Notes under the pieces: generated by a model
Databases searched by the model: none
Seen by the model: the letters and a program-made list of their open reading frames with translations, nothing else
What the model was told of the DNA's origin: nothing
Source: Cymbomonas tetramitiformis
Lineage: Eukaryota > Chlorophyta > Pyramimonadophyceae > Pyramimonadales > Pyramimonadaceae
Assembly (NCBI GenBank): GCA_001247695.2
Contig: LGRX02030318.1
Coordinates: forward strand, 1 to 64,000
Direction: 5' to 3'
DNA length: 64,000 bases
Position numbers and translations under genes: made by a program
Part shown: positions 1-21,125 of the stretch, piece by piece
Numbering within the stretch: the stretch's first letter is position 1
Layout of the letters: each line of letters opens with the position of its first letter

Positions 1-1261
1 CCGCGTGCGCCATCTCGGAGAACTCGGCGACGGCGGACATGAGGACCTCACCGCCCTCCTCGCAGAACGAGCACGCGGAGAGATCGGTGAAGACCTCCGG
101 CTTCCCGCCCGCAAGCATGCAGAGGGCGTCGAACTCCACGGGGTCGCTGTTGTCGATGGCGTGTTGGAACTTCGCGGCCAACACGGAGTTTTCGGCCTCT
201 TCGGCGAAGGCGAAGGCCGAGAGTCAGGTCCTGCCCCCGTTCGGGCAGTCCCGGTGCCAGTGCCTCGCCTTCCCCTTAGCACATACCTGATTTTGGCAGT
301 ACGGGATTGTCGCACCGCTTTCGCGGTGGAAGGCCACCTTCCGCGAGACGGACTGAGACCAATTTCCCCCTTTGGGGAGGGGCGAGGCTGCGAAACGGGT
401 CTTGACCCGGCGGTCCGGTTTGTCCGCGCGAGGGGTAAATCCCCGCGGAGACGGTTCGGACTCGGCGGTGACGAGGAAGGTGGCCAATTGCCTCTTCAAG
501 TCGAGCACCATTGTCCGCAAGTCCGCGATCTCACTCGCCGCACCCGACCCATCAACGTCCTTCTCCATGAAGTGCGTGCCGTGGGAGTACCGGTGTGCCG
601 ATGCGGTGGCGGTGCCCGCCCGCACGTGCTCGCCGTAGCACTCCCGCACCCACTGCTGAATGGTGAGTAGGTCGTGGGCGGCTCGCTGGTCGTGAAGGAG
701 CAAACGGGACACCACCGGTTGGTAGAAGGTGGCGTCGAGGGCTTTGATGAAAAGGGACTTCACGTCCTCGTCCTGGAGCGTTGATCTCGTCCTCGCTGCC
801 TTGAGCGCGGCGTTGAAGTCCTCAATGGGTCCATGAGGGTCCACGCCCGCAGCGATGCGGACGGCAAACATGTCCGCTTGCCCCTGGAAGGGGTCCCCAA
901 CCGGGATCATCCGACGGGCGAACTCGAGCAGGACACGCTTACCGTCTGCTGGGAAGCTGGCGTGGGACGAGTCCAACCAGTCCGCTGCGGGCGACGAGGG
1001 GTCGATCAGCAGCTCGATCGTGGAGAACAATAAATTGTTGGCCTCCACGCGGACGGCCAAAGTAGCGTCGTCCAGCGTGAAGAGTGGGAGGAAACCGGCG
1101 TCCTCAGTGACGAATGCTGCCTGCAGGGCAGAGACCATCCTACCTCGTGAAGATGGCCGCCGCGTGGGGCTCCGCACCGGAAAATCTCCCCTCTTTGCCG
1201 TCGAACAACTTGCGCTGGACGTGCTTCGCCACCTTCATGTCGAAGTGCTCCCGCTGTAAGG
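1..1261 (-). pseudogene. Copia-like Gag fragment, cut by the Ty3 insertion
   Basis: A minus-strand frame resembles the Gag proteins at 30965-33341 and 57296-59747. It shows the KVAKHVQRKLFDGKEG-type block, a region matching their NGLLYDVLAL segment (EANNLLFSTIEL), and a zinc-knuckle-like C-x4-C-H-C cluster followed by DCPNGG near 226-290. Coding enters at 1261, where the Ty3 LTR begins. It hits TAG at 1140-1142, continues in the next frame to a TGA at 224-226, and then stays open in that same frame to the window edge with Gag-like sequence (AEEAENSVLAAKFQ). So there is one frameshift and one in-frame stop. The protein would be the RNA-binding capsid of a retroelement. It is most likely a decayed copy. 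Read-through at the TGA is possible but unsupported. Confidence 0.7.
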
Positions 1262-1645
1262 TGTCACAAACCACGGCTTATCGTGTACCTCAGCCGGGTT
1301 GTGACACTTGCTGTAGCAGTCTCTGTGACGAACGTATGACACGCGCAGTACGATACGCGCGAGGAGTTATGACAGTGACGAGATACGGAAATACGGATGG
1401 GTGTGACACTTGTTTGGAGATAACGAGAATAAGTAGGGCGGCGTAGTGAGAGTGAGCAGACGCTCATTTTTGTTTTGCCTTCGTAACAGTGATTCCGAGA
1501 ATAACCAGGACTCGCTTGAGACCGCGAAAACAGCAGTGTTATGAGATAATTAATGAGATACAGTATTCTTATGCTTGTAAAGATATACATTTGTGGACTT
1601 GCCCTTGTGCGACTGCGTCAGAACTGTAATTAACAGTCTTTTTCA
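1262..1645 (+). repeat. 5' LTR of the Ty3 element (lacks its first 226 bp)
   Basis: This 384-bp segment starts TGTCACAAACC and ends CTTTTTCA. It matches 16119-16503 with roughly a dozen visible differences. The 3' copy extends a further 226 bp upstream (15893-16118), which is absent here, so this LTR is truncated at its 5' end or the element is permuted. It should contain R-U5 and part of U3. I saw no convincing TATA box or tRNA-complementary primer-binding site just after it. Confidence 0.85.
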
Positions 1646-2538: not shown

Positions 2539-5500
2539 ATGGAGTATACTGACTACGCTCGTGTCAACCTTGGTACGCTGCCCAACTACACGGGCACCAA
2601 GGAAGAAGATCGGCCCAAGTTCCTGAGGGAGTTCGCCGACATGTGCGAAAATTTCGTACGGCAGCACAACGCCAACGTCAGGAAGAGGCTCAGGTCCGGG
2701 GCTGGCACTCTCACCGAAGCACAGATGAAGACCCTGAGAGAGACTCCCCCTGACTTTGAATACCTGTGGGACATCGTCCCTGCGTGTCTGGCTGGAGAGA
2801 ACTCACAAGCTCTCAGCTGGTGGCGCGAGAACTATGAAAGAGGGGGGGTAGTGACCTCCAACATGGACCGAGTCCTGAAGGACACTAGCGAGCATGGCCC
2901 ACTCGAGGGTACCATCCCGTGCGCTAGACCCCCTTTCAATGAGATGAACGCTGGCACCACGTGGGTGATAGCGAGGCCAGTGACAAACCAAGACACCCAA
3001 GGGGAGGTTTCCGACGAATATCTGACTGATGGAACCTCCCTGAAAGGCTTGACGGGACGGGATGGCACCCGTGATACCCAGTACTTCTACGCGCTCAGGG
3101 GCTTCATCGCTGCCCTTGACAAGAAGTTCATGATGAAAGGGACTCAAGAGAAAGTGGATCTGTTGACACAGAAGCCGCAAGAGGTGGGGCAGGATGGGCT
3201 GACCTACATGAAGATGTGCCAACGCAGGGAAATGCAGCTCAACACTGGGAAGGTGTTGAGCGATGAAGAGCTGCGCACCTTCATCGAGGACTGCGTAGAC
3301 AACCTGCGCATCAAGGTCTTTCAGACGCGGGTGAAGGAGCAACTGAGGGCACAGTTCCCGCCACCCAATCGGGTGACCTGGAAGGACCTGGAGGCCATCG
3401 TCGAGGTTCAAGACAAGCTCAAGGGCGATGCAGAGTCTTGGATCCTCACCTTCCTCCAGGAGATCACCAGACGATGTGGCTGCCAGTACTCCACCTGGGA
3501 GGCGCGACAGCATGGCCTTGACCTCAAGGCCATAAAGAACTCGATTAAGAAGATTGAGTCCTCTGAGGTGGCGCAGTCAGGCGAACCAGAGAACAGCAAG
3601 AAGGTAGACGCATCACCTTCTAAGAAGATGAAGAAGGAGGTGAATGTGGCCGAAAGAGCTAAGAAGGCCTCCTACAACAAGACGCCACCGCCAGCAGAGG
3701 GCGTGCGTACGAACGACAAGCCCAAGTGCTTGCGCTGCTTTGGAGGGGGCTGGCATGAGTCCGACCCCGAGCAGTGCAGGAGTGGTTATAAACACGTCAA
3801 GATGCCTGCTGGATTCCACGAAAGCAGGCTTGGTTCCAGCAAGTGGTGGGACGCGGAGAACGCCGCTCTGCGCATGTACAACCTGAAGAACCGCTTCAAG
3901 AACTCTGACTGGGGCATCCTGGTGACGGACTGGCAGCAGCTGTCCAACGAAGAGAAGGACAAGTACAGAGCCAAACAGCCACCAGAGGACAAGCAGAAGA
4001 GCACCACTGGCAATCCCGAGGCGTTGAAAGCAGAGTACCAGGGCATGGTGGCTGCTAGGAAGACGGCCAGTCGTGCGGGCAGCGTGAAGTCGCAGGTGCT
4101 GTCCGAGGATGAGGGCTCCGACGGGGAACCAGTCGCAGCGCACGTCGCGGAGAGGGAGACGCACACCGTCGATGCATGCGCGCACCACCATGGCAGCGCA
4201 GGGGTAGGAGTGTCGTCTGGCCCTCCAACCGAGTTACTCACAGCCATGGCCGAGGAGATGGGCGAAGAGGAGCTCTCTAGCGCCCTCAACACCTTGGGTC
4301 TGGGGGCACTCCCCGAGACGCTGTGCAAGAGTGTGGAGTCTGAACTCACGGCGGCTCCAGCAGTAGCCCTGGGAAGTACCCAGCGCATGAGGGGCTTCCC
4401 AGTGAAGCCCCCCGAGGAGTACGAGGCAGACGCACAGGTGCCCATGGCGCCTGCGGCAGACGAGATGCAGAGGAAGGTTCAGCTCATGGCCTCCGTGATC
4501 AAGAGCCTGGGAGCAGCTTTCCGCAAGCTAGCTGCTGGACTCGTAGCAGAAGGTCGCATATCAGCTCCAAGGGGTGTGGAGACCTTGGTGGAACTGGCTG
4601 AGAACGACCAGCTCCCCGTGCCAACAGCCTCAGCAGCAGACTGCCAGGACACCAGCGACGAGGATGATGACTGCCCGGGCATGGAGTCGGGCGACGACAG
4701 TGACGAAGAAGAGATTCCTCTGGATGAGATGCCGGAGGACATGGTGGAGCAGCCCAGGAAGGAGAGGACGACGGTGCGTGTAACAGCTGCAGCGGCCACC
4801 GTCCAGGAGAGCTACGGGGTGAGAGACTTCAGCGAGAGGGGTGAGCTGCACGCAGGGACCATGGACGCTAGAGCGTACGAGCTATTGAAGAAGAAGATGC
4901 TCAGTGGCCTTACAGAGGAACAGCTCACTGCCATGGCGCAGGTCCAGCCTGTATGCAAGCTCCTGAACGATTCTCTGGCACAAGGGATGGCGCTGGTGGC
5001 CTCTGGAGGCTTGCTTATGTTGTACAAAGCGCTTCTCCTGGACACGGGGGCCAACTGCAACATCATCCCAATCAGGACAGCCAACAGGTTGGGCTTGACC
5101 ATCTTTGATGCGGAGACAGGGGCCAGGGTGGCGAGATGTGATGGCAGCCCTGCGGAATTCACGAAGTACTGCTACGTGGATGTGGTTCTCGCTGCGGGCA
5201 CGCCGTACATGACTCTGCATCGGCTCCACGCCTTCGTCACCTACACCAATGACACGACGTGGGATTTCTTGGTGGGCACTGGACCCCTGAAGAACGCCCT
5301 CAAGTTGACCATCGACCTCTACAGAGGCATTGCTACTTCCGAGGCCGCGGTGTCACTGGGTATGAAGGAGAAGGTCACGTTGCCATTGATCGAGTTGACG
5401 CCGCCCGTCGATGCAAGGAGCAAGCGGAATGAAGACCCGAGAGTGTGCCTGGCGACCGAGATCTTCGACGTTGAGGCCGCGACAGCGCGCACTCTTGCCC

Positions 5501-8500
5501 CCGCTTTTGATGATTGCGAGCTACCACCACGTGAAGCAGTGTCCCTGGACACGAGGGGAGAGGACCGTCTGGCCCTCGCAGGGGAAAGGTGTTCGCCTGC
5601 ACCTTGTGCATTCTCGCGAAACCACCCCGAGCTGATGGAGAGCCTGGCATCATGGCTAGAGGAGATGAGGCTGAGAAGGTTCAACTCGGATGAGAGGGAG
5701 AGGCTCGAGGCGCGCTGCCAGTCCATGGTGGAGGCAGGCTTCTTGAAACCCAGCTCAATGATGCAAGTCGAGCTCACTGGGCGGGTCAGCTTACACGCCG
5801 AGAACGCAACGTACGAACCTCCTCCGCCTGGTACGTCCTTGACAGACCAGATGCTGGGCATGCTACAAGCATCATCACGCAGCCAGCGGGAAGCCAATGT
5901 GGCGACCAGGGGTGAGTGGTCCAGTGCTGAAGAGCCAGATGCGAGGGAGTCCCGCACTCAAGCCAGCCTGACCACAACTCAGTCAGACCCTCGCTATCCA
6001 GACCTCACGCTGAGGCAGGAGGCCGAGAGCGAAGCTGCCTTCAAGCTGGCCAGCGTACAGCCATGGGGGGGCATGGCAGTGAACCCGTGGGACTACCAAG
6101 ACAAGGAGAGTAGCTGGTCTCAGCAGCGCTTGTACATCGACCGCACGGGCTATGCTCGTCTGTGCACACTCTGCGAAGAGGGCGATGGAGGTGGTTTAGA
6201 CGCAGGATTTGTGCAGGTCAAGTTCCCGCGATGTGGAGAATACAAGACCATCCTGGAGACGGAGCTACTGTGGCCCGACTTTACGTTGGTGGACCAGAAG
6301 GTTGCCAAGGAGACGAAGATACCCTCAGAAACCTGGACCACGAGGCCGAGCGGCAAGAAGGACAACGACCAGGTCCCACTCCCTGACTGTGGTGCCCATC
6401 GGGAGGCAGGAAGGTACACGATGGCGAGTGTTCAGGAGGTCCTCAACACCCATCAGACGTACCCAGGAGTCGTGACGGGCAAGCTCATGTGGGACAAGGT
6501 GGCGCGCCAGTTCTGCGTACTCAGCGAGCACACTCGCGCCCAATGGGATCTCATGGAGCGCATGGTACGTCACACCATGGAAGGCGTCACCATCATGAAC
6601 CCCATGGGCAAGATGACTGGCGAGTTCCAGCTGCCTTTTTACTATGAGAAGGACCAGCGCTGGCAGTACCAGCACCTAAAGTATGTACAGCGAGTGGACA
6701 TCGTTGACCTTCGAGCTCGTCTGAAGGTGAGGTACGATATGGAGGTGGCGAGCGAGGTGAATGTGACCCCGCAGCTCACGCTGTCAGACGCAGCGGACAA
6801 GGTGGGGAAGTTCTACCCGGTGACAGATGGGGAAGGAGGCAATGGCGAGGTGTTTAGCACGAACGCTGCCGCCGTGGAGTACCTGCATCTGGGTGACAAC
6901 CCGAGAGTGATGCTCGGAGCATGCAAGACAGAGGAGCAAGCACAGGACGCGCTGGACACTTATGGGGCCAGAAGAAACCCTCCAGTGCGCACATCCAAGA
7001 CTCTCAAGACGTCGAAGACGGTCAGGGGGGATGAGGCAGGGCCATCTGGCTCCGCACCGCCACCATCTTCTGCACCGCTTCGTTTACGGCATCAAACCTG
7101 GCCCAACGGCGTCTTCGACCCTGCCATGTTGGATTACCACGCTGCAGTGTTCCAGGGCACCTACGAGCCGGAGTCGCCCACTCACAGCGAGAACACAGCT
7201 GGAGAAGCCAACTGGCTGGATCTGGGAGAGCTCTCGGAGTTCATGGCGCTGCAGGGACAGACGGTCTTCCTCATCCAGTACCGTTGCTTCATGGGCAAGA
7301 TCGAGTTCCAGCTCGGGAAGCCCTTCGCGCAGCGAGGAAGGGGGGTGCACACGCAGCAACTCAGCAGCCAGACCCTGCACCGGTACGCTTCCTCCGCAGG
7401 AGTGGGACAAAGGGAAGAGTTTCTGCCTCTGGGTGGGCAGTCGAAGGGCTGCACGGGAGGACTCCTCGGCACCTTGCAGAAACATATGACACATCTGGTT
7501 GATCGCACTCAGCTCTTGGAGATCGCCAGAAGCCATTTGAGCGATGGCCCACGGCAGGGCACCCTACGGGTTTTCAAGACCCGTGCCAACGCCCGGTCCA
7601 AGGCCGTGTATTACCTCTTTGAGGACAATCGCTACTACAGTGAGCGGGGACCCAGCAGCATGGCGTTCACCTTGGAGTACCTCTCCTCAGGCACGCGCAA
7701 GTTTGACTGCTGCAGCTGGGAGACCTGGAACAAGGTGGCGGTGATGCACCGAGAACCATTGTCTGCGTTCACGTCCTCGGTGGGCCCGGCGTTGCTGGCT
7801 GAGGCACGTCGGGCAGAGGTGCAAGAGCGTCTTCGAAACGACTTCATGAGGAACCTGGACCCAATCGAGGGAGGGGATGCAGGAAGTGAGGAGGGAGACG
7901 GCAGCATCTCAGGATACTCTTCCGACCTCGCGGCTGTTGAGGGTGTGAGCACTCACACGGGTCGCACCAGAACACCGTCGCCGCTGACAGAGGATGAAGA
8001 CAGCGTGGAGGTCATCAGTGACAGACTGGTTGGGCTGTCTGCCAGATTGGCGCACGGGGAAGCCGAGCTCGCGGCAAACCACCTCACCATGGCGGCTCTC
8101 TCGGAATCGATACAGGAGCGTCAGGCGATCATCAGAGAATATGAAGAGCGACCTCGTACTGCCCGCGCAACTGCGAGGATTGGAACGGGGACGACCACGC
8201 CGGCACCCTACTCTGGCCGAGTTCTCGGCGGGATATCGACCATGGGCTTGGAGTGCAACATGGCACAGAGACCTGAGCACCATTCAATCCACGACATTCT
8301 GAGATCCCCTGCACATTCCGTCTGCACGCAGCAGACTGAAGCCGTGCCTCCGGCTGTCCCAGGACAAGAGCCGGACTCCGTTTCATACGTGCCATCGACC
8401 CCGAGCTCTACAGCACCCAGCAGCCCGGAGCGTTCCAGTGGCTTCGTTGCGCAGGTCGGCACTCGACCTTCAGGCCATCCTACAGCGCGCCCGCAGAGTC

Positions 8501-8748
8501 CAACTGAGAGTGCCGCACAGCAGAGTTCACCACGGGCTGGTCAGCGCAGGAGGAGATCTCCTAGCCCCGAGGAAGGCGCTCATCGTCAGGACGCGTCTCG
8601 CAGTCGGCGTGCCGGCATGGGCGCGTCGCGGGCTCCCCAGAGACACCAAAGTTATGATGAGATCTGGGATGAGAGGAGAAGGGAGAGCGCACTGGGGCCT
8701 TTTCAAGGGGGCACCGGGCCAGCTGCAGCCCGGCGCGCCCGTCACTGA
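2539..8748 (+). CDS. Gag-protease polyprotein of the Ty3 element (2069 aa)
   Basis: This is the structural polyprotein of the element. An N-terminal capsid-like region (about residues 1-300) is followed by a Lys-rich stretch and a zinc-knuckle-like cluster with CLRC then H and C (about 397-413). A retroviral-type aspartic protease follows, with LLLDTGAN around residue 835 and a downstream hydrophobic flap region to about 940. The remaining 1100 residues contain acidic and Ser/Pro-rich stretches and a Cys-containing patch (LCTLCEEGDGGG, near 1208), and I do not recognise them. At over 2000 aa it is far longer than a usual Ty3 Gag-protease. The ATG at 2539 is the first in frame, but the frame is open upstream to about 2262. 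The protease should process this protein and the Pol product. The stop lies 65 nt before the first possible Pol start codon used here. Confidence 0.85.
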   Translation: MEYTDYARVNLGTLPNYTGTKEEDRPKFLREFADMCENFVRQHNANVRKRLRSGAGTLTEAQMKTLRETPPDFEYLWDIVPACLAGENSQALSWWRENYERGGVVTSNMDRVLKDTSEHGPLEGTIPCARPPFNEMNAGTTWVIARPVTNQDTQGEVSDEYLTDGTSLKGLTGRDGTRDTQYFYALRGFIAALDKKFMMKGTQEKVDLLTQKPQEVGQDGLTYMKMCQRREMQLNTGKVLSDEELRTFIEDCVDNLRIKVFQTRVKEQLRAQFPPPNRVTWKDLEAIVEVQDKLKGDAESWILTFLQEITRRCGCQYSTWEARQHGLDLKAIKNSIKKIESSEVAQSGEPENSKKVDASPSKKMKKEVNVAERAKKASYNKTPPPAEGVRTNDKPKCLRCFGGGWHESDPEQCRSGYKHVKMPAGFHESRLGSSKWWDAENAALRMYNLKNRFKNSDWGILVTDWQQLSNEEKDKYRAKQPPEDKQKSTTGNPEALKAEYQGMVAARKTASRAGSVKSQVLSEDEGSDGEPVAAHVAERETHTVDACAHHHGSAGVGVSSGPPTELLTAMAEEMGEEELSSALNTLGLGALPETLCKSVESELTAAPAVALGSTQRMRGFPVKPPEEYEADAQVPMAPAADEMQRKVQLMASVIKSLGAAFRKLAAGLVAEGRISAPRGVETLVELAENDQLPVPTASAADCQDTSDEDDDCPGMESGDDSDEEEIPLDEMPEDMVEQPRKERTTVRVTAAAATVQESYGVRDFSERGELHAGTMDARAYELLKKKMLSGLTEEQLTAMAQVQPVCKLLNDSLAQGMALVASGGLLMLYKALLLDTGANCNIIPIRTANRLGLTIFDAETGARVARCDGSPAEFTKYCYVDVVLAAGTPYMTLHRLHAFVTYTNDTTWDFLVGTGPLKNALKLTIDLYRGIATSEAAVSLGMKEKVTLPLIELTPPVDARSKRNEDPRVCLATEIFDVEAATARTLAPAFDDCELPPREAVSLDTRGEDRLALAGERCSPAPCAFSRNHPELMESLASWLEEMRLRRFNSDERERLEARCQSMVEAGFLKPSSMMQVELTGRVSLHAENATYEPPPPGTSLTDQMLGMLQASSRSQREANVATRGEWSSAEEPDARESRTQASLTTTQSDPRYPDLTLRQEAESEAAFKLASVQPWGGMAVNPWDYQDKESSWSQQRLYIDRTGYARLCTLCEEGDGGGLDAGFVQVKFPRCGEYKTILETELLWPDFTLVDQKVAKETKIPSETWTTRPSGKKDNDQVPLPDCGAHREAGRYTMASVQEVLNTHQTYPGVVTGKLMWDKVARQFCVLSEHTRAQWDLMERMVRHTMEGVTIMNPMGKMTGEFQLPFYYEKDQRWQYQHLKYVQRVDIVDLRARLKVRYDMEVASEVNVTPQLTLSDAADKVGKFYPVTDGEGGNGEVFSTNAAAVEYLHLGDNPRVMLGACKTEEQAQDALDTYGARRNPPVRTSKTLKTSKTVRGDEAGPSGSAPPPSSAPLRLRHQTWPNGVFDPAMLDYHAAVFQGTYEPESPTHSENTAGEANWLDLGELSEFMALQGQTVFLIQYRCFMGKIEFQLGKPFAQRGRGVHTQQLSSQTLHRYASSAGVGQREEFLPLGGQSKGCTGGLLGTLQKHMTHLVDRTQLLEIARSHLSDGPRQGTLRVFKTRANARSKAVYYLFEDNRYYSERGPSSMAFTLEYLSSGTRKFDCCSWETWNKVAVMHREPLSAFTSSVGPALLAEARRAEVQERLRNDFMRNLDPIEGGDAGSEEGDGSISGYSSDLAAVEGVSTHTGRTRTPSPLTEDEDSVEVISDRLVGLSARLAHGEAELAANHLTMAALSESIQERQAIIREYEERPRTARATARIGTGTTTPAPYSGRVLGGISTMGLECNMAQRPEHHSIHDILRSPAHSVCTQQTEAVPPAVPGQEPDSVSYVPSTPSSTAPSSPERSSGFVAQVGTRPSGHPTARPQSPTESAAQQSSPRAGQRRRRSPSPEEGAHRQDASRSRRAGMGASRAPQRHQSYDEIWDERRRESALGPFQGGTGPAAARRARH

Positions 8749-8813: not shown

Positions 8814-11800
8814 GTGTGCTTCCTGCTCGTGGGGGTGTTCGTGCGCTTGCGTTGGCCGCAGCTGCCTCACTTTGCAGTAATGGCAGTATGGATGGCTATG
8901 GAGGTATTCAGGTTTCTTGGTGAGGTCGTCGCCTGCTGGGCATTCCACGCTGAGGCGCCCCGCAGAGCCGTGGCACGCGCGTTGTGGGCCGTGCGCGCAA
9001 CGCCACTCGAGCCATGGGCACATCAACAGGCGCCTCTCCGAGTGCTGTTGGCACTGGCCAGGCACCTACTGCTGTTGACCAAGGGCGCTCTTGAGGTAGC
9101 TGGGCTCCATCACGCTCGGCGTGGGCTGTGGTACGTGCCGTTGATACGGTTCTGCCTCGTCATGCTCGCCATGCACTTCACACACATGGTCGACACTCTG
9201 GGGTGCGTCTTGACGGTTGGCGCCCACATTGTCCACCATGGGTTGCCATGCTCCGGCTCAGTTCAAGATGGTGGCACATTCGCCGCGTTGGAGACTCAGG
9301 TGGGTCGCGCGCTGGCGGTCGCCCAGCGGATCTTGGCCGCCGGGCCGGCTACGCTGGCCGCTGTTCCGCGGCGCATGCAGAAGCCGCGCTTTGCCGCTCG
9401 ACTGCAGCGCCTGCGGTTCACTGCCGCTTGCTACCGAGTGGCGCACTGTGTCTATGTGATATCAGTCTTGGCGCTGGTGGTCTACGTGTCTGCAGGAGGA
9501 GGCCTGGGCCGTATGCAAGGGGGGTGGAAGATGTTGACTTGCATACTGACCCTTCACCCTCCAGTTAAGCCAGTGGGTACCGGCAGAATTTTAAAACTTT
9601 TGCTGCTGCTAGCGGTGGCTGCTTGGGTGGCCGTCGTGGCCCCTGGGGAGCCTCAGGGCGTGCTGACGATGGACACGTGCTCGAGCTCGCCGATCAGATC
9701 TACCAGGACCGCCTGGGAAGACCAGAGGTCTTCGCGCCAATGGGACACCGGATGGGAGGCTATGGTGGCAGAGCAGGACGAGGTGCTTCCGCACACGGTG
9801 CTGGACACGTTACAGCCAGGGGGCACAACCAGGGTCACCAAGGACGAGGCCGCGTGGCTGGACACCGAGCTCAATGCCACCTTTGGAGGACACCCCGAGT
9901 TCACCGAGGAGAATTGGGAGGAGATGCGCAACGTGGTAAGGAGGTGCAGCTACTGCTTCGCCAACAAGCCGCAGGACATCCAAGGCTACCATGGGGGCGC
10001 GACACATGCGACCTTCGCCATCCCTTTCAAGGACGAGACTAAGGTAGCTTACCAACGACCGAGGAAATACAGCCCGGGAGAGCAGGAGATCATCGACCTG
10101 CACTGCAAGGAACTGCTGGAATATGGCTTCATCGAGCCGGCTTCGCAGCACTGCAGACACGCCAGCAACGTGGTGGTCGCGGGGAAGAAGGATCACGACA
10201 CTGGACAGTGGACCTCGACGAGATTCTGCGTCGACCTCCGGAATACTAACCGGTTGTCGCTCAAGGATAACACGTTACCACATCGCCCAGAAGAGCTCTA
10301 CCAGCGCGTGGCCAAGGCCAAGTTCAAGACTACCCTGGACGCGACCAAGGCGTTCCACCAGATTCCCATGACCACTGAGGAGGACAGGGACAAGACAGCG
10401 TTCTGGTGGGGCAACCAGCTTTATCGCTACACATCCATGCCGTTTGGAGCAGCTGGAGCAACCGCAGCCTTCATCAGGATCATGGACTATGAGCTACGCC
10501 ACCTGCAACACTGCACGGTGGCGTACGTCGATGACGTGTGCATATACTCAGACACCGCTGAGCAGCACATCAAGGATGTGGAAGCCGTGCTTCGCACTTT
10601 GGGGGATGCAGGGATACGTCTGCATTCGGGCAAGTCAACCTTCGGGTCAGCCACGGTGGACTTCTTGGGCTACCGCATCGGCTATAACACCATTGGCGCG
10701 CAGGACATCAAGTGCAAGGCCATCCAAGAGCTGCCCAAGCCCGAGGACAAAACTGGAGTACGCTCCATCCTTGGACTCATGAACTACTACAAAGGTCTGG
10801 TGGGGGAACCCATGGGACCCAACTACTCAGAGATGGCACGACCATTGAACGACCTGCTCAGAAAGGAAGTGTTGGATGTCAAGGGAGCTTGGGGGAAGGA
10901 TCAGGACCAGGCATTACAAGCATTGAAGGATGCCTTGTGTTCGGGGAGATGTTTGAAGCCCATTGATTACAGCAAGCCCATCTTCCTCTACACAGACTGG
11001 AGCAACCATGGCATTGGCGCAGTGCTGGGGCAGAAGGACGAGGATGGCGTAGAACACATCTGTGTGGTCATCAGCCGCTCGCTGTCGAAAACCGAGAGAC
11101 AGTACGCGAGCTTCCAGGGTGAGATGCTGGCAGTGGTGTGGGCCATCCGCACCTTACGACAGTACCTGCACGGGATCCACTTCACGCTGATCACCGACCA
11201 TTCGCCGCTCACGACACTCATGGAGAAGGGTGACCTACAAGGTCAACACCTACGCTGGGCCATCAGCCTCCAGGAGTTTGAGTTCACGGTCCAGTACCGA
11301 CCAGGTCCGAAGAATGAGAACGCGGATGTGCCATCCAGGTATCCACTGCCCAGCACCGCAGACGAGACTGGTGCCCGTTTGGACCGTGAAGGGGACCGAG
11401 CCAGGGAAGCGGGGCGTGCCGAGAGGCCAACGCGCTGCTTCACAGACGCCATTTGCTGGGAAGTGACCAGGGAGCCACCACTTGGCCCCGAAGTAAGCCC
11501 AGAAGCTCAGGTGGCCAACTACTGCGAGAACATAGTCAGGGAGCAGCTGGGGACCAGTGCAGTCCATCGACTGTTTGATGTACACTACCAAGAAGAGCTG
11601 GAGTGTAACAAGGGGGTCATGTTTGACACTGACCACCCGGAAGTGGCCAGGTGCTCGGGCAGGTTGACTCGGGTCGCCTGGGATGCCCTCAGCCAGGTAC
11701 GGCCGATCAGGGGTATGCATTCCGGAGGCTCACCAGCGATATACGGCGACGAGACCATGGAGGGTGGTAAGCTCAAAGTGCCGAAGAAGATCGACACGAG

Positions 11801-14800
11801 AGTGATTGACAAGAGCTTCTTCCAGGAAGCCAGAGAAGAGGGCGTGGTCTGTTATGAGCCGTGTGGGGGCCTGTGTGCTGGACTAGAGATGCTCTTGCGC
11901 TGCGGAGTTAAGGTTAACAAGTACCTCTACCAGGACATCTCGAAGTCCAGCCAGACGATAGCCAGGGCCAGGTGCATGGCGCTCAGTCGCCGTCATCCCG
12001 ACTTGTTCCGTGCCGAGGCAGCCCACTTGGAGCAACTGCCCAGCAACATCGAAGACACCAGCCTCATTGACCTTGTACATGCAGGGGCATTGAGTGGAGA
12101 ACAGTGGGTCATGGTGTGTGGATATCCATGCCATGACCTGTCACCAGCTGGCAAGCTGGCTGGTCTGGAGGGCAGGCACAGCAGACTGTTCTACCAGGCA
12201 GTGCGAGTCCTCTCCACGCTGCAACAGCTGCAACCTCAGAGACCGCCAGCATATGTGCTGGAAAACGTTTCTCCGCTGTCACACAGGGAGAACTCGAAGA
12301 TCAGGAAGGAGGTGTTCCCCATCATCAACAGCGTGGTGGGCCAGCCGGTGTCCTTTGACGCGGCGCGCGCGGGATCATACGCGCATCGTCTACGAGCTTA
12401 TTGGAGCAATCTGTTCCAGAATCAGCAGTTCAATCTGGTGATGGAGCGGGTGGACAGACCACCAGACAGATACGTTCGCGATATTCTGCAGCGAGGCTGG
12501 AAGCCGCGCAGGGTCGTCACAGGAGACAGGAAGCCTCACTACACCGCCAACGTTGTAGGGGAGCCTATGAGAGTATTGCCAACCATCTTGGCGACACAAA
12601 ACTCTCGTGCTTTTCGCGCGCCTCGCGCAGGCACAGTGGTGAGGAAGGGAGACGATGATGAAGTGGGGGAGACCAGAGAGGTTAACCTGGACGAGAAGGC
12701 AGTGGCCATGGGGTACAGCGCAGGTGAGCTGCGCGCGGCACATGGCATGAAAGACAAAGAATTGGCAGGAGTGCTTGGCCTTGCTATGGACCGAAGAGCA
12801 ATGGAGCTATTGTATGCGATTGCCGAGGTCAGCACGACCAAACTGCCGAAGAGTGAGGAGAGTGAGGGGGAGGAACATGGCACGCTAGTTGCCATCCCCA
12901 TCGCGAAAGCCACCAAGGTGGCTGCCACCTCCGAGGACACGGCTGAGCCGGTGCGAGCCCAACTAGCAGAGTGGATCACCAGTTCCAGCGGCTACACCCA
13001 ACAAGTCGCGCGACGCCTCAGCCATCAGGACTGGGAAGAACGACTGCAACGCATGTGCAGCCAAGGACAGAAAGGTACACAGGGGCTAGGCACCGCCGAC
13101 GCTGTTCCACGCCGCAGGCAGTGGAAGATGGCCTCCATGAAGCTCGCGGGCTACGAGGCACGTCACCGGCAGGCCTTTTCAAGACCTGGAGGCAAGCCAG
13201 CAGAGACAAGCTCAGCCCCAGAATGGGCACCAGTGACAAAGGAGAAAGAGATGAGGCTGCCTAAGCTGCCCGACACTACGAGAATGGTTGCCATGCTAGC
13301 CAGCGTAACCAACCAGGAGTCATTCCGAGAAAGATACCCCGATATACACGAGGACGAGCTATGCCTCGCGTGGATCAAGACAGGAGGAAGAGTGGAGGTG
13401 CCCAAGGAGGAATATCACAGGGTAAGGAAGAGGGCAGCGCGTCACCGTTGGGACGAGCTCATGGGCGAGTTATACATGGTCACTGTCAGTGGTAAGGAGC
13501 TGCTGGTGCCCAAGCCCTGTGACAGGATTCAGTTGGTGCGTGAGTACCATGAGAGGACTGGCCATTGGGGCATCAGGCGGACATTGAACCTGTTGTGGCA
13601 ACGCCATTACTGGGCAGGCATGAAACAGGATGTGCAAGCAGTGGTCACTCAGTGCCAGACTTGCCAGAGGGTGAAGACGCACTATGCACGGGAGGAGGCG
13701 AATCTCACGCCGCTGGAGATCAAGTCCTTCATGTATCGCTGGTCCCTGGATTTAGCATGGCCTACGAAACGCATCACGAGGGCTGGGAACCAACGCGTCT
13801 TGGTCATGATTGAGCACTACACGCGATTCGTCGTGTGCGTTCCAATCCCCGACAAGGAGGCCGCCACCATCGCCAACGCATTTCGCTATCATGTCCTATC
13901 CGTGTTTGGGGCGCCTGCAGAATGTTTGGTGGATGGGGGCACAGAGTTTGAAGGTGAGTTCTCTGCTCTATGCGAGCAGTGTCTCATTGACCGGAGAGTG
14001 ACTTCACCGAGTTCCCCAGAGAGCAATGGCTTAACTGAACGGGTGGTACGCACCCTCAAGTTTTGCTTCAAGAAGATGGCCCTCGACAAGGGCCTGGACT
14101 TCGAGTGGGATGAGATGCTCTGGTCACTCGTACTCAGCTACAACGCAGCTAGGCAGCAGTCCACTGGAGTGGCGCCATTCACCTTGCTGTTCGCTCAGGA
14201 AGCCACGGTGCCACCGGATCTTCGTGCTCGACCCGAGTTGGACTTTGGGAAGCAGGAGGAGAAGACACTGGCTGATGATCTGTTACAGCGAGCCGCCATC
14301 GTGAAGAGGCTCATGGTACATGCAGGGTGCAACCTGGAGATCGCTCAGCACCGCGACACTTTACGGTACGAGCACAGGAGGAGTGGCAGTTACGAACCGA
14401 AGCCGCACCAGTTCAAGGCAGGCGATTTCGTATATATACGACAACAACCGCGCTCTGGCATGGAGGTGGCCACCAAGTCAGCCATCCTGAAGATAGTCAA
14501 GGTGCAAAGAGATGGAGTGGTAGTGTTGGAGGACAGCACGAAGCTGCGGGAGAAGAGCACAGTGCAAAATATTGCACCATGTCACCTACAAGTGAAAGAC
14601 CAGTACGACTGCAGTGCAGCCATTCCCAGCAAGCATCTCGCGTGTGAGGCGTGCATGCGGACAGATGGGGAGGCAGCCATGTTGCCGTGTGACACCTGTA
14701 ACCGTGGTTATCACACGTGGTGTCTGAATCCAGCGCTGGATGGAGTACCTGAAGGGGATTGGCAATGTCCCAAGTGCTTAGGTGGGACCGTGGTGGCAGC

Positions 14801-15857
14801 TGCCGCCGAGGTGAGCGCGTCAATCGTCGACAAGATGGCGGCCATGGAGCTGCAGCTGAGAGAGAAGCTGGGATCAGATGTGGTATTGTTGCCTGCAGAC
14901 GTGGGTCCGCATCGTGCAGTGAGGCCGGGACGTGAAGACCCATGGCAGGCGCTGACCTCGCGGCAGATGCTCAGAAAAGAAGGGAGCATGGGGGATCTTC
15001 CTGACAGAGTGGCCTGGGGAAACCAAGGGGAGCTCAGCAGAGTGATCACAGAAGTGATGCCAGGATTCTGGCATGAGGGCCATCGTACCATCTTGAGCAG
15101 GAAGTGTGCAGAGCAGCACACTCGCGCGAGAAGTCTCCGCAAGACGTCCACGGTGCAGGCCATGAGCCCCGAGGAAGTGCAGAAGAGAGGAGATGTCACA
15201 CAACTGAGCAGAGCTCAGGTGAAGATTGCCAGTCAACTGGATTGGGGCTTAGAGTTGGTGATGACAGTTCCTCAGGAGGTCAGACGTTTGGCGCACGAGG
15301 TGACTTGGGAGAAGATCACACAGGTATGGGATCCTTGGGCTGGCACAGGTGTCATTGGCAAGGTTATGTCACTGGAGTGGCCTCATCTGAAGGTTATGAA
15401 TAATGATTGGAATCCGCAGTTGAAGTGGCACGAAGCCCTTAATGCTTTACAACCGGGCAATTATCGAGCCTGGAAGGAGAAGTATGGGGTGTGTGACGCA
15501 GTGGTAACTTCACCCTGGTTCGCAGTGCTGGATATTGCGTTGCCATTGGCAGTACTGGCCAGCCGAGTGGTGGCTTGTATTCATGTGCCATCGCACTACA
15601 TGACAGATATGACAGAGAGCAGGGCACAATACTTTCGTAAGCTGTGTCACGCTGGACGCTTACATGTGATTGGACATTTGGAGCATGGACCTATTGGCAG
15701 AAGATGCATGTGGGTCATGGTGTTTCGCAACCCTTTGACAAGAGCCAGGATGTTGCGAGGAGGAGAAGCTTCTGGAGTGGGTATGTTTACCTTCAGCATG
15801 GGCAAGTTCGCAATGGATGGCGTTACAACAGAAGATGCTGAGCAAGCTCTTGTCTAA
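8814..15857 (+). CDS. Pol polyprotein: membrane segments, RT, RNase H, cytosine methyltransferase, integrase, PHD finger, methyltransferase-like domain (2347 aa)
   Basis: Domains in order by approximate residue: hydrophobic segments at 1-44, 105-137, 212-232 and 259-280; RT at 400-660 with YVDD at 571-574; RNase H at 720-850 (Asp728, then GEMLAVVWAI and TDHSPL). C5 cytosine DNA methyltransferase spans 1005-1345: motif I EPCGGLCAGLEM (1015), catalytic loop GYPCHDLSPAG with Cys1106, ENV at 1150-1152, HRLRAYW and a C-terminal motif X-like block. Integrase follows with its HHCC zinc site (1579-1617) and catalytic Asp1646, Asp1707 and Glu1742. A PHD finger (C4-H-C3) lies at 1944-1988. The last domain (2150-2300) has DPWAGTG (2173-2179) and TSPWF (2232-2236). 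Translation probably continues from Gag by recoding, because the frame is open upstream and 8814 is a GTG. The frame is intact throughout. The family assignment of the last domain is inference. Confidence 0.9.
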   Translation: MCFLLVGVFVRLRWPQLPHFAVMAVWMAMEVFRFLGEVVACWAFHAEAPRRAVARALWAVRATPLEPWAHQQAPLRVLLALARHLLLLTKGALEVAGLHHARRGLWYVPLIRFCLVMLAMHFTHMVDTLGCVLTVGAHIVHHGLPCSGSVQDGGTFAALETQVGRALAVAQRILAAGPATLAAVPRRMQKPRFAARLQRLRFTAACYRVAHCVYVISVLALVVYVSAGGGLGRMQGGWKMLTCILTLHPPVKPVGTGRILKLLLLLAVAAWVAVVAPGEPQGVLTMDTCSSSPIRSTRTAWEDQRSSRQWDTGWEAMVAEQDEVLPHTVLDTLQPGGTTRVTKDEAAWLDTELNATFGGHPEFTEENWEEMRNVVRRCSYCFANKPQDIQGYHGGATHATFAIPFKDETKVAYQRPRKYSPGEQEIIDLHCKELLEYGFIEPASQHCRHASNVVVAGKKDHDTGQWTSTRFCVDLRNTNRLSLKDNTLPHRPEELYQRVAKAKFKTTLDATKAFHQIPMTTEEDRDKTAFWWGNQLYRYTSMPFGAAGATAAFIRIMDYELRHLQHCTVAYVDDVCIYSDTAEQHIKDVEAVLRTLGDAGIRLHSGKSTFGSATVDFLGYRIGYNTIGAQDIKCKAIQELPKPEDKTGVRSILGLMNYYKGLVGEPMGPNYSEMARPLNDLLRKEVLDVKGAWGKDQDQALQALKDALCSGRCLKPIDYSKPIFLYTDWSNHGIGAVLGQKDEDGVEHICVVISRSLSKTERQYASFQGEMLAVVWAIRTLRQYLHGIHFTLITDHSPLTTLMEKGDLQGQHLRWAISLQEFEFTVQYRPGPKNENADVPSRYPLPSTADETGARLDREGDRAREAGRAERPTRCFTDAICWEVTREPPLGPEVSPEAQVANYCENIVREQLGTSAVHRLFDVHYQEELECNKGVMFDTDHPEVARCSGRLTRVAWDALSQVRPIRGMHSGGSPAIYGDETMEGGKLKVPKKIDTRVIDKSFFQEAREEGVVCYEPCGGLCAGLEMLLRCGVKVNKYLYQDISKSSQTIARARCMALSRRHPDLFRAEAAHLEQLPSNIEDTSLIDLVHAGALSGEQWVMVCGYPCHDLSPAGKLAGLEGRHSRLFYQAVRVLSTLQQLQPQRPPAYVLENVSPLSHRENSKIRKEVFPIINSVVGQPVSFDAARAGSYAHRLRAYWSNLFQNQQFNLVMERVDRPPDRYVRDILQRGWKPRRVVTGDRKPHYTANVVGEPMRVLPTILATQNSRAFRAPRAGTVVRKGDDDEVGETREVNLDEKAVAMGYSAGELRAAHGMKDKELAGVLGLAMDRRAMELLYAIAEVSTTKLPKSEESEGEEHGTLVAIPIAKATKVAATSEDTAEPVRAQLAEWITSSSGYTQQVARRLSHQDWEERLQRMCSQGQKGTQGLGTADAVPRRRQWKMASMKLAGYEARHRQAFSRPGGKPAETSSAPEWAPVTKEKEMRLPKLPDTTRMVAMLASVTNQESFRERYPDIHEDELCLAWIKTGGRVEVPKEEYHRVRKRAARHRWDELMGELYMVTVSGKELLVPKPCDRIQLVREYHERTGHWGIRRTLNLLWQRHYWAGMKQDVQAVVTQCQTCQRVKTHYAREEANLTPLEIKSFMYRWSLDLAWPTKRITRAGNQRVLVMIEHYTRFVVCVPIPDKEAATIANAFRYHVLSVFGAPAECLVDGGTEFEGEFSALCEQCLIDRRVTSPSSPESNGLTERVVRTLKFCFKKMALDKGLDFEWDEMLWSLVLSYNAARQQSTGVAPFTLLFAQEATVPPDLRARPELDFGKQEEKTLADDLLQRAAIVKRLMVHAGCNLEIAQHRDTLRYEHRRSGSYEPKPHQFKAGDFVYIRQQPRSGMEVATKSAILKIVKVQRDGVVVLEDSTKLREKSTVQNIAPCHLQVKDQYDCSAAIPSKHLACEACMRTDGEAAMLPCDTCNRGYHTWCLNPALDGVPEGDWQCPKCLGGTVVAAAAEVSASIVDKMAAMELQLREKLGSDVVLLPADVGPHRAVRPGREDPWQALTSRQMLRKEGSMGDLPDRVAWGNQGELSRVITEVMPGFWHEGHRTILSRKCAEQHTRARSLRKTSTVQAMSPEEVQKRGDVTQLSRAQVKIASQLDWGLELVMTVPQEVRRLAHEVTWEKITQVWDPWAGTGVIGKVMSLEWPHLKVMNNDWNPQLKWHEALNALQPGNYRAWKEKYGVCDAVVTSPWFAVLDIALPLAVLASRVVACIHVPSHYMTDMTESRAQYFRKLCHAGRLHVIGHLEHGPIGRRCMWVMVFRNPLTRARMLRGGEASGVGMFTFSMGKFAMDGVTTEDAEQALV

Positions 15858-15882
15858 TGTCTGTGCTACCAGTGGCAGCTAC

Positions 15883-16503
15883 AGATGGGGGATGTTGAGA
15901 AAAAGAGCTTGCACAAGTGGTGAGAAGAGATAAAGAGATATCAAAAATTTTGAGATTTTGTATAGTTACAGTAGCAAGCTAACTGTGCAGTCATATAAGG
16001 AAACATATGCAAAGCCGAGCTAGTGTTGTGGAGGCACTGACAATAAGTAAGACTGTCTAGTAGTAGGGCTAGAGGGTTGTGCTTTGTGTGGACGCTTCGT
16101 GCATAAGTTCGCGACAGCTGTCACAAACCACGGCTTATCGTGTACCTCAGCCGGGTTGTGACACTTGCTGTAGCAGTCTCTGTGACGAACGTATGACACG
16201 CGCAGTACGATACGCGCGAGGAGTTATGACAGTGACGAGATACGGAAATACGGATGGGTGTTACACTTGTTTGGAGATAGCGAGAATAAGTAGGGCGGCG
16301 GAGTGGGGTGAGCCAGACGCTCATTTTTGTTTTGCCTTCGTAACAGTGATTCCGAGAATAGCCAGGACTCGCTTAAGACCGCGAAAACAGCAGTGTTATG
16401 AGATAATTTGTAAAGATACAGTATTCTTTTGCTTGTAAAGATATACATTTGTGGACTTGTCCTTGTGCGACTGCGTCAGAACTGTAATTAACAGTCTTTT
16501 TCA
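15883..16503 (+). repeat. Polypurine tract and full 3' LTR of the Ty3 element
   Basis: The tract AGATGGGGGA (15883-15892) precedes TGTTGAG at 15893. The LTR runs to CTTTTTCA at 16503 (611 bp) and so has TG...CA ends. Its last 385 bp match the 5' LTR. Its first 224 bp recur immediately after it (16504-16727). Confidence 0.8.
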
Positions 16504-16727
16504 TGTTGAGAAAAAGAGCTTGCACAAGTGGTGAGAAGAGATAAAGAGATATCAAAAATTTTGAGATTTTGTATAGTTACAGTAGCAAGATAACTGTGCA
16601 GTCATATAAGGAAACATATGCAAGGTCGAGCTAGTGTTGTGGAGGCACTGACAATAAGTAAGACTGTCTAGTAGTAGGGCTAGAGGGTTGTGCTTTGTGT
16701 GGACGCTTCGTGCATAAGTTCGCGACA
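16504..16727 (+). repeat. Extra partial LTR copy following the 3' LTR
   Basis: This 224-bp segment repeats 15893-16116 with only about three visible differences. It stops at GCGACA, next to AAGG. With the matching deletion at the 5' LTR this gives the order core, internal, U3-part, core, U3-part. Confidence 0.8.
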
Positions 16728-16730
16728 AGG

Positions 16731-18919: not shown

Positions 18920-20626
18920 GTAAACGATATTTGACACGAAGTGGGAACTGATTCCGCGCGATCGAGATGTCATCAGACCTGAGACAGGTCGTCATCGTCA
19001 TTTCGCCGGATCCGAGGTGCCATGCCACCGCTGCGAGGTGCACACGGTAAAGCTGCGAACGGAAGGTCAAAGGCAAAGGGGAAGGCAAAGGGTTTAAGAT
19101 TTAGCGGCAGTAGGAATAGTTTTCAGAAGCATATGAAAAGTATTCTAGTGCTTCTGAAAACTATTCCTACTTCTTCTATATCCTAAACCCTTTGCCTTGC
19201 CTTTTACTGCTGCACGCGACCGGCAAGCATCTTTGAAACTTCCGAGTTTCAAAGATGCGTTTTGTATTTTGGGTGCACCCTAAAATTACAAAACAGCCGA
19301 GCGCTTCCCGTTTGTGCGGGATATTCACATGTATTCCATGGCATATTTCATATGAAATATACACATAAGCACGAAGGCATCGGCCACGCATCTTTGAAAC
19401 TAACGAGTTTCAAAGATGCGTTTTTGGTCATTTGCCGAGCGCTTCCCGTTGGCGTGGGGTATCCAACGCTTGAATGTTGAATATTCAATATAATATGAGT
19501 TAGCATGCGAGGTTGCGAAGGCATCGGGACAGAATCTACGAAACTGTCCTATGCCTTTGCCTTTGGGTTTGGGTTCGAACGTACCCAAACCCAAAGATGC
19601 CAAACAGCCGAGGGCTTCCCGTGCGTCCTAGAGCACGAAACTTGGCACAAATACTGCCAAGATACATATCTTTAAGTTACCTGAAGCTCAAGGCTTCAAG
19701 TTACTTGTGCGCGAAACGCGCAATTTATTTCTAAGGCAGATGTTTTGGGTTTGGGTTCGAACGTGACACCCAAACCCAAAGATGCCAAACAGCCGAGGGC
19801 TTCCCGTGCGTCCTAGAGCACGAAACTTGGCACAAATACTGACAAGGTACATATCTTTAAGTTACTTGAAGCTCAAGGCTTCAAGTTACTTGTGCGCGAA
19901 ACGCGCAATTTGTTTCTAAGGCAGATGTTTTGGGTTTGGGTTCGAACCCAAACTCAAAGATGCCAAACAGCCGAGGGCTTCCCGTGCGTCCTAGAGCACG
20001 AAGCTTGGCACAAATACTGCCAAGGGATATATCTTTAAGTTACCTGAAGCTCAAGGCTTCAAGTTACTTGTGCGCGAAACGCGCAATTTGTTTCTAAGGC
20101 AGATGTTTTGGGTTCGAGTTTTGGTTCGAACCCAAACCCAAAGATGCCAAGCAGCCGAGGGTTTCCCCTGCGTGTGCATGCGTGTTAATTCATATGAAAT
20201 ATGCTATGGAATACATGTGAATATCCCGCACAAACGGGAAGCGCTCGGCTGTTTTGTAATTTTAGGGTGCACCCAAAATACAAAACGCATCTTTGAAACT
20301 CGGAAGTTTCAAAGATGCTTGCCGGTCGCGTGCAGCAGTAAAAGGAAAGTCAAAGGGTTTAGGATATAGAAGAAGTAGGAATAGTTTTCAGAAGCACTAG
20401 AATACTTTCCATATGCTTCTGAAAACTATTCCGACTGCCGCTAAATCTTAAACCCTTTGCCTTTCCCTTTGCCTTTGACCTTCCGTTCGCAGCTTTACCA
20501 TGTGCACCTCGCAGCGGTGGCACCTCGGATCCGGCGAAATGACGATGACGACCTGTCTCAGGTCTGATGACATCTCGATCGCGCGGAATCAGTTCCCACT
20601 TCGTGTCAAATATCGTTTACAGTACC
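18920..20626. mobile_element. Mutator-like non-autonomous DNA transposon with long inverted repeats
   Basis: This 1707-bp insertion splits the Copia RT. CCCAGAAAG at 18911-18919 is repeated at 20627-20635, a perfect 9-bp target duplication. The ends are long inverted repeats of about 450 bp (18920-19375 against 20177-20626) carrying TAAACGATATTTGACACG. Several small hairpins made of CATCTTTGAAACT and its complement lie inside the arms. The centre holds tandem repeats of about 180 bp and no transposase. A 9-bp duplication with long inverted repeats is typical of MULEs, so I infer mobilisation in trans. Confidence 0.85.
19604..20160 (+). repeat. Tandem repeat of about 180 bp inside the Mutator-like element
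   Basis: About three units begin CAGCCGAGGGCTTCCCGTGC (near 19604, 19789 and 19969, with a partial fourth near 20150). Each contains CTTGAAGCTCAAGGCTTCAAG and GTGCGCGAAACGCGCAAT palindromes and a GGGTTTGGGTTCGAAC block. The same unit forms a six-copy array at 52858-53880. Confidence 0.85.
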
Positions 20627-21125
20627 CCCAGAAAGCCTGGTGGAAGGCATCATCACATGTCAGCCCGAAGTCATCCACGTAGACAGCCACGAAGGCCACG
20701 AACACAGAGGTCACAATATAGTATAGGCACGGGTCATATGTGGACTGGGTGAAGTGCATTCCCTGATAGGTGAAGGACTTCATGAATTTGTTGGCCAGCT
20801 TCTGCCAGGAAGCACCAGCCGTCCGTAGCCCGTAGAGAGCATAGAGCAGCTTGGCATAGCCATATCTGCCCTTATACATATACCCAGAGGGGAACCGCAC
20901 ATATATAGGAACCTCCAGACGGGCATGAACAAAGGCCTGACTGACGTCAAAGTGATAGACCATAACCCCCATACCAGCAAAGATAATAGACAGGATGAAG
21001 AGAAGGCGGAAGGTGGGCAGGTCTGCTACCGTGCATGCGGTTTCAGCTTGGGTGTAGCCCCAGTGCCATGATTGTGGCAGCCACGGCCATCCGAGCTTTA
21101 TGACTTTGGACGGGCGGTAGACCAT
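20627..21125 (-). pseudogene. N-terminal reverse transcriptase of the Copia polyprotein
   Basis: The frame reads FDVSQAFVHARLEVPIYV, KLLYALYGLRTAGASW and AVYVDDFGLTCDDAFHQAFW, the fingers and palm of Copia RT with the YVDD catalytic motif. It is out of frame with the upstream integrase frame; a one-base indel near 21060 would explain this. It is cut at the 3' side by the Mutator-like insertion, so no functional RT can be made. Confidence 0.88.

Follow-up and report, generated by a model that had tools for sequence, protein, structure and literature searches.

The capture of DNA methyltransferases (DNMTs) by eukaryotic retrotransposons is already known, with cases described in the covered sections of de Mendoza et al. 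(2018; PMC5890265). According to these sections, KnitGypsy-Dnmt3 of Klebsormidium nitens combines a DIRS-like repeat order with Gypsy domains, has a Ka/Ks ratio (nonsynonymous to synonymous substitutions) below 0.2 and is described as a gain of the K. nitens lineage; DNMTs also occur in DIRS and LINE elements of dinoflagellates, and SymbioDIRS domains methylated CG in yeast. Why retrotransposons capture such enzymes is presented there as an open question. Sarre et al. (2025; PMC12344493), in the part covered, mention retrotransposon-embedded DNMT3 as known from streptophytes and dinoflagellates and call the long terminal repeat (LTR) kind Copia. For the green alga Cymbomonas tetramitiformis, the covered parts of the 2015 genome paper name a cytosine methyltransferase among scaffolds with more than 10,000-fold coverage (PMC5741210); those of the 2023 assembly paper list 15.3% LTR elements and a chromodomain element, and the word 'methyltransferase' is absent from the main text covered (PMC10675990). 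Here we analyse a retrotransposon of C. tetramitiformis contained in the first 64,000 nucleotides of contig LGRX02030318.1 (assembly GCA_001247695.2), referred to below as the window.

On balance, we favour the view that this is a Ty3/Gypsy-type green-algal element whose Pol polyprotein holds a Dnmt3-like methyltransferase (MT1), a PHD finger linked to the integrase and a second methyltransferase with a class I fold (MT2), with the roles proposed for them below. Compared with the known DNMT3-bearing Gypsy-type elements with split repeats, it has in addition a finger of the chromatin-reader type and a second methyltransferase under strong conservation; it also shows clear signs of insertion by an integrase, has been active recently and ranges over several chlorophyte lineages. 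An earlier note on this DNA had supposed that a PHD finger and a second methyltransferase in one such polyprotein may be new, and no report of this combination in a DNMT retroelement was found in a search that covered open-licence PMC papers, not Repbase or closed papers.

Architecture of the Pol polyprotein and its family

Pol is encoded by a single open reading frame (ORF2; Table 1), the GTG start of which is the choice of the ORF finder only. Pfam domains RVT_1, RT_RNaseH, DNA_methylase, Integrase_H2C2, rve and PHD were found in it. The order of reverse transcriptase (RT), RNase H (RH) and integrase (INT) is that of Ty3/Gypsy elements, except that MT1 stands between the latter two. The Asp residues of the YVDD motif are residues 573/574. 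The rve score of 29.1 bits is under its cut-off of 32.6; the DDE residues are located at 1646/1707/1742, and D, D and E are kept in 138 of 138 family rows. The open frame, the Pfam domains and the motifs bear out the uninterrupted retrotransposon frame proposed in the earlier note. Its account of the Pol domains stands; it lacked the terminal repeats, the gag/protease ORF upstream of Pol and the hydrophobic stretch at the N-terminus.

The C5 methyltransferase seen there can be defined more exactly as Dnmt3-like. MT1 has a Pfam DNA_methylase match at residues 1096–1167 (E 1.2e-8) and matches both the catalytic motifs of DNMT3 (PC/ENV/HRxR; here Cys1106, ENV from 1150 and HRLRAYW from 1191) and the DNMT3 fold. 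The catalytic Cys, Glu and second Arg are retained in the family rows examined. A search of Pol gave no Pfam match to an ADD or PWWP domain. The PHD finger is genuine, as judged by its Pfam match (E 2.4e-9) and its nearest solved chains. It begins about 580 residues beyond the end of MT1, behind the integrase, at the C-terminus of which no Pfam match to a chromodomain was found. In MT2, motif I (DPWAGTG at 2173) precedes motif IV (TSPWF at 2232). The MT2 of the window copy has no convincing match in Pfam or PHROG, and an MT2 profile gave no significant match among PDB sequences; comparison with PDB structures returned class I methyltransferases, so that the second methyltransferase-like domain holds as a class I fold despite weak sequence matches.

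The family extends to other green algae. When at least half of each profile was required, the full order RT-RH-MT1-INT-PHD-MT2 was found in 51 of 160 proteins (window included), and the order without MT2 in a further 43. Named green-algal hosts are Cymbomonas, Haematococcus lacustris, Scenedesmus sp. PABB004 and Monoraphidium neglectum. C. tetramitiformis itself supplies the best protein match (99% over the queried region), and 15 of 64 matches bear its name. One weak match carries the name of the fish Scortum barcoo (P0159; E 2e-19, 15% of the query covered), a match from a bacterial metagenome-assembled genome (P0026) is probably contamination, and other family matches are metagenome or EukProt entries. 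No relative was confirmed among the IMG/VR and GTDB contigs searched. The order INT-PHD-RT-RH-MT1 in Haematococcus was rejected as a new permutation, as the gene models contain parts of two elements. An extra PF01585 domain, which we take to be G-patch, appears in the precomputed Pfam lists of P0038, P0054, P0058 and P0103.

Such fused gene models (Haematococcus P0065 and P0068) would be the precedent for regarding the open frame as a gene-model or assembly chimera, a condition that the earlier note had named as refuting. This explanation is practically negligible. All 20 scored genome copies (out of 19,494 first-look candidates) span residues 1–2347 with 98–100% amino acid identity and no stop codon, and the same six-domain order recurs in the 51 proteins from several sources, which argues against both chance and chimera. 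In addition, EukProt entries P0070 and P0087, the names of which presumably have transcript-assembly form, span RT to PHD in one ORF.

Split repeats, recent copies and further features

The ends of the element were compared in 20 copies, the window copy and 19 fetched ones, with repeat boundaries taken from a direct-repeat scan of the window and a reading of the ends. The 3′ end has the form B-gc-A-B in 13 copies and B alone in five (L010, L018, L019, L023, L026); it is partly deleted in L009 and cut by the contig end in L021. The 5′ end is A alone in the window and in all 13 copies fetched whole there, the remaining fetched 5′ ends being partial (one) or beyond contig ends (five). In nine copies (window, L011–L013, L015–L017, L024, L027) both ends were seen in the arrangement A-coding-B-A-B. 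In L016, A2 and B2 are separated by five additional bases; in the other B-A-B copies they abut directly. Perfect 4-bp target duplications lie directly outside A1 and the last B in 11 of the 13 copies with both flanks, each expected by chance in 1 of 256 cases with even base use; L024 (GGT) and the window copy (AGG) have 3-bp duplications. The integrase therefore joins the start of A and the end of B. B-gc-A may act as an LTR, with the internal B|A junction as the integrase cut site, and the B-only copies could stem from recombination between B repeats, a one-repeat intermediate or assembly collapse.

The plain order LTR-internal-LTR expected of Ty3/Gypsy was not found; split direct repeats, a DIRS-like feature, are present instead. 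The first repeat scan could suggest a simple LTR element, the LTRs being about 385 nt long; this reading was rejected in view of the B repeats and the target duplications in many copies. Membership in DIRS was rejected as well, for the DDE integrase (rve, H2C2) is present and neither ORF1 nor ORF2 has a Pfam match to a tyrosine recombinase/phage integrase.

The element has been recently mobile. Within a copy, A1 and A2 differ by 0–2 substitutions of 384 (eight fetched copies) and B1 and B2 by 0–2 of 224 (12 copies), two copies having small gaps in each comparison, versus an average of 3.5% at synonymous sites of Pol between copies; the repeats are thus made anew by copying, and several of the insertions are recent. 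The window copy itself is a poorer witness, with 18 of 385 columns different between A1 and A2, 3 of 224 between B1 and B2, and only 3 bp duplicated. By its gene content, the element appears to be autonomous.

When the copies were compared, the ratio of nonsynonymous to synonymous differences (pN/pS) stayed well under 1 for each enzyme domain and reached its minimum in MT2. Two points weigh on the other side: pN is lowered overall because the copies were chosen by protein similarity, and pN/pS of MT1 exceeds that of RT, integrase, PHD and MT2.

Table 1. Features of the element in the window; residues refer to Pol.
Feature	Position	Strand	Remarks
Possible 3-bp target duplication AGG, left side	1259..1261	.	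right side 16728-16730; weak in window copy
Repeat A, first copy (A1), 5′ end of element	1262..1645	+	starts TGTCAC, ends TTTTTCA
ORF1	2539..8748	+	2069 aa, gag-like by position
ORF2, Pol polyprotein	8814..15857	+	2347 aa
Hydrophobic N-terminal stretch	8814..9683	+	about residues 1-290, three predicted membrane segments
Reverse transcriptase	10011..10793	+	residues 400-660, YVDD, RVT_1
RNase H	10881..11363	+	residues 690-850, RT_RNaseH
MT1, Dnmt3-like C5-cytosine methyltransferase	11841..12908	+	residues 1010-1365, Cys1106, Glu1150
Integrase, H2C2 zinc domain and DDE core	13491..14183	+	residues 1560-1790
PHD finger	14643..14777	+	residues 1944-1988, C-terminal to integrase
MT2, class I methyltransferase fold	15264..15773	+	residues 2151-2320, DPWAGTG and TSPWF
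Purine-rich ACAGATGGGGGA, polypurine-tract-like, directly before B1	15881..15892	+	identical letters in 19 fetched copies
Repeat B, first copy (B1)	15893..16116	+	starts TGTTGAG, ends GCGACA
GC dinucleotide between B1 and A2	16117..16118	+	end reading
Repeat A, second copy (A2)	16119..16503	+	direct-repeat scan
Repeat B, second copy (B2), 3′ end of element	16504..16727	+	direct-repeat scan

The frame of ORF2 is already open from position 8673 and lies in the −1 frame with respect to ORF1, the 3′ end of which it overlaps by 76 nt, a layout that points to expression by frameshift; a scan of the overlap for a classical X XXY YYZ slippery site found none. In ORF1, Pfam gave a weak match to a retroviral-type aspartyl protease (residues 832–874; both Pfam matches below cut-off) and nothing beyond it. 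The roughly 1190 residues that follow (window 5161–8748) are without Pfam match; parts of this region are recognizable in the polyproteins P0003, P0004, P0015 and P0023. Hydrophobic segments upstream of RT are, to our knowledge, unusual in Gypsy Pol. Of the 52 proteins with at least 250 residues in this region, 42 have one or more predicted segments and 32 have two or more. Tandem units of about 180 nt, 95–98% alike, lie beside the element at window 19580–20000.

Putative roles of MT1, MT2 and the PHD finger

MT1 would methylate cytosine in the newly synthesized double-stranded DNA of the element while this is still within the particle or pre-integration complex, and the new copy would then look like host DNA. 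We give this role of MT1 on the unintegrated copy roughly an even chance. Several observations weigh against it. According to the sections covered of PMC5890265, the isolated KnitGypsy-Dnmt3 domain gave no methylation in yeast, a result which that paper calls inconclusive. CpG observed/expected is 0.71–0.73 in the ORFs of the element, or 0.85 of the value in synonymous-codon shuffles, and the terminal repeats are not CpG-depleted. CpG is scarcer still (0.55–0.67) in a Copia-like element nearby, which has no recognized methyltransferase, so that CpG depletion is no evidence of self-methylation and was ruled out as its proof. Differences of CG to TG/CA among the copies reach only 1.4-fold the level of the GC control. 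The Copia-like element (window 21043–26573, minus strand) consists of two ORFs, the first with SH3_retrovirus and rve, the second without match.

The low CpG content of the ORFs, though shared with this neighbour, might also be counted in favour of self-limitation, an option discussed in the covered part of PMC5890265, in which the DNMT silences new copies and lessens harm to the host rather than protecting complementary DNA. We consider it improbable: silencing has not stopped mobility, as at least 20 full-length copies are nearly identical and several of these have repeat pairs without a difference, and selection on the DNMT is more easily explained by a gain within the element cycle.

Natural variation near the catalytic site raises another alternative, namely that MT1 has ceased, across much of the family, to be a conventional cytosine methyltransferase, its chemistry or substrate being altered by replacement of the near-universal Pro before the Cys. 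In 142 rows the Cys is invariant, and the preceding residue varies (P/E/S/A/D), with Glu in 67 and Ser in eight, together 75 rows, usually with ENT. ENV changes to ENT in step (57 rows PC-ENV, 53 EC-ENT), and at least nine changes were counted on the RT tree (100 rows). Coevolution of the two positions was rejected as a conclusion, as the tree test gave no support and independent pairs are too few. All 20 Cymbomonas copies read, that of the window included, retain PC, and for the family at large a loss of conventional activity seems quite unlikely. Methylation of the new copy by MT1 is the reading that we keep.

For MT2, we slightly favour methylation of the exocyclic amino group of a nucleic acid base, which would be N6-adenine or N4-cytosine. 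In some relatives MT2 matches methyltransferase families, in PHROG DNA methyltransferases and in Pfam the D12 N6-adenine DNA methylase. The TSPPF motif presumably resembles that of DNA N4-cytosine enzymes. These points speak against a somewhat unlikely alternative, in which MT1 alone acts on DNA and MT2 modifies the RNA of the element (N6-methyladenosine, m6A, or similar) or a protein, protecting or sorting the genomic RNA. In its favour, the structural neighbours of MT2 include the RNA enzymes METTL5, KsgA/Dim1 and TrmR and the glutamine-N5 enzyme PrmC, and orchid Ty3/Gypsy elements acquired an m6A RNA demethylase domain, according to the part covered of PMC9289625. The PDB fold matches single out no one substrate and were rejected as a basis for assigning it.

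Base amino-methylation by MT2 also meets difficulties of its own. Foldseek ranks MT2 with generic class I enzymes (PrmC, COMT; TM score about 0.33–0.49), and motif IV is SPWF, not SPPF, in the Cymbomonas subfamily (20 copies), with SPP[FYW] in eight of 57 family rows. Of the 160 proteins only 61 gave a match to MT2, and both motifs pass the strict test in 24 of 57 rows, from which MT2 appears dispensable in many lineages; the RT tree requires at least 12 changes between its presence and absence. No stand-alone relative of MT2 was recognized among 51 matches (best 8000 candidates scored), which are Cymbomonas, EukProt or unnamed entries of 111–396 residues and look like pieces of the same element family.

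The chains nearest to the PHD finger are those of MLL3/MLL4, CHD4, KDM5, WSTF, ATXR5, BAZ2, DPF and PHF21A, several of which read the H3 tail unmodified at K4 (H3K4me0). Methyl-lysine cages of the BPTF and ING type carry Trp two places before the conserved His; in 124 family rows this position holds Gly (108), Ala (13), Phe (two) or Pro (one), and never Trp. Both observations point to the H3K4me0 type. We propose tentatively that the finger binds the unmodified N-terminal H3 tail and steers the integrase, from the position of the chromoviral chromodomain.

Methylation of its own or target DNA and histone-guided insertion, as imagined in the earlier note, could be joined in a more far-reaching scheme, which we hold to be rather doubtful: 5-methylcytosine by MT1 and N6-methyladenine or N4-methylcytosine by MT2 would be written on the unintegrated DNA of the element, the PHD finger would then pick the site by reading unmodified H3K4, and the architecture would be old in green algae, with an origin shared with the Klebsormidium element. 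If so, the reported independent charophyte acquisition would be part of a wider Viridiplantae lineage. No protein named for K. nitens was found among the protein matches.

Our results suggest that the element may place DNA methylation on the copies that it newly makes. The reason for DNMT capture becomes testable with many near-identical recent copies, divergent relatives that keep the catalytic residues, a reader-type domain at the integrase, and natural variants with and without MT2 or with differing residues beside the catalytic Cys of MT1. The element also shows that DIRS-like split repeats are compatible with a DDE integrase and clean target duplications of 4 bp, a point of relevance to the replication of such repeats.

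Comparison with known systems

KnitGypsy-Dnmt3, compared by its published description only, likewise has a Dnmt3-type domain within Pol of a Gypsy-domain element and A-coding-B-A-B repeats (its Fig. 1 and Fig. 4 legends). It differs in that a PHD finger is unmentioned in the main text and a second methyltransferase in the sections covered, and in that its acquisition is described for the K. nitens lineage, the present family being found in several chlorophytes. SymbioDIRS-Dnmt3 and SymbioLINE-Dnmt are also retroelements with a DNMT, in SymbioDIRS with the domain in Pol and split repeats; where our element has a DDE integrase, they use a tyrosine recombinase (DIRS) or LINE machinery, and the text covered mentions neither PHD nor second methyltransferase (PMC5890265). 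DIRS elements with a Dam-like adenine methyltransferase, cited in the covered part of the same paper, likewise have a putative amino-methyltransferase, of no evident kinship to MT2, and split repeats; they differ by their tyrosine recombinase.

Chromoviruses also carry a chromatin-reader-type domain C-terminal to a DDE integrase. In our element a PHD finger takes the place of the chromodomain, and methyltransferases and split terminal repeats are added. Vertebrate DNMT3A/B share with MT1 the fold and catalytic motifs, and their catalytic domain, too, is joined with a histone-reading zinc domain. The ADD domain of DNMT3 reads unmodified H3K4; Pol has instead a PHD finger far from MT1, behind the integrase. 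If the far-reaching scheme above is true, one polyprotein would rebuild the chromatin logic of DNMT3, a methyltransferase together with an H3K4me0 reader, within a retrotransposition machine.
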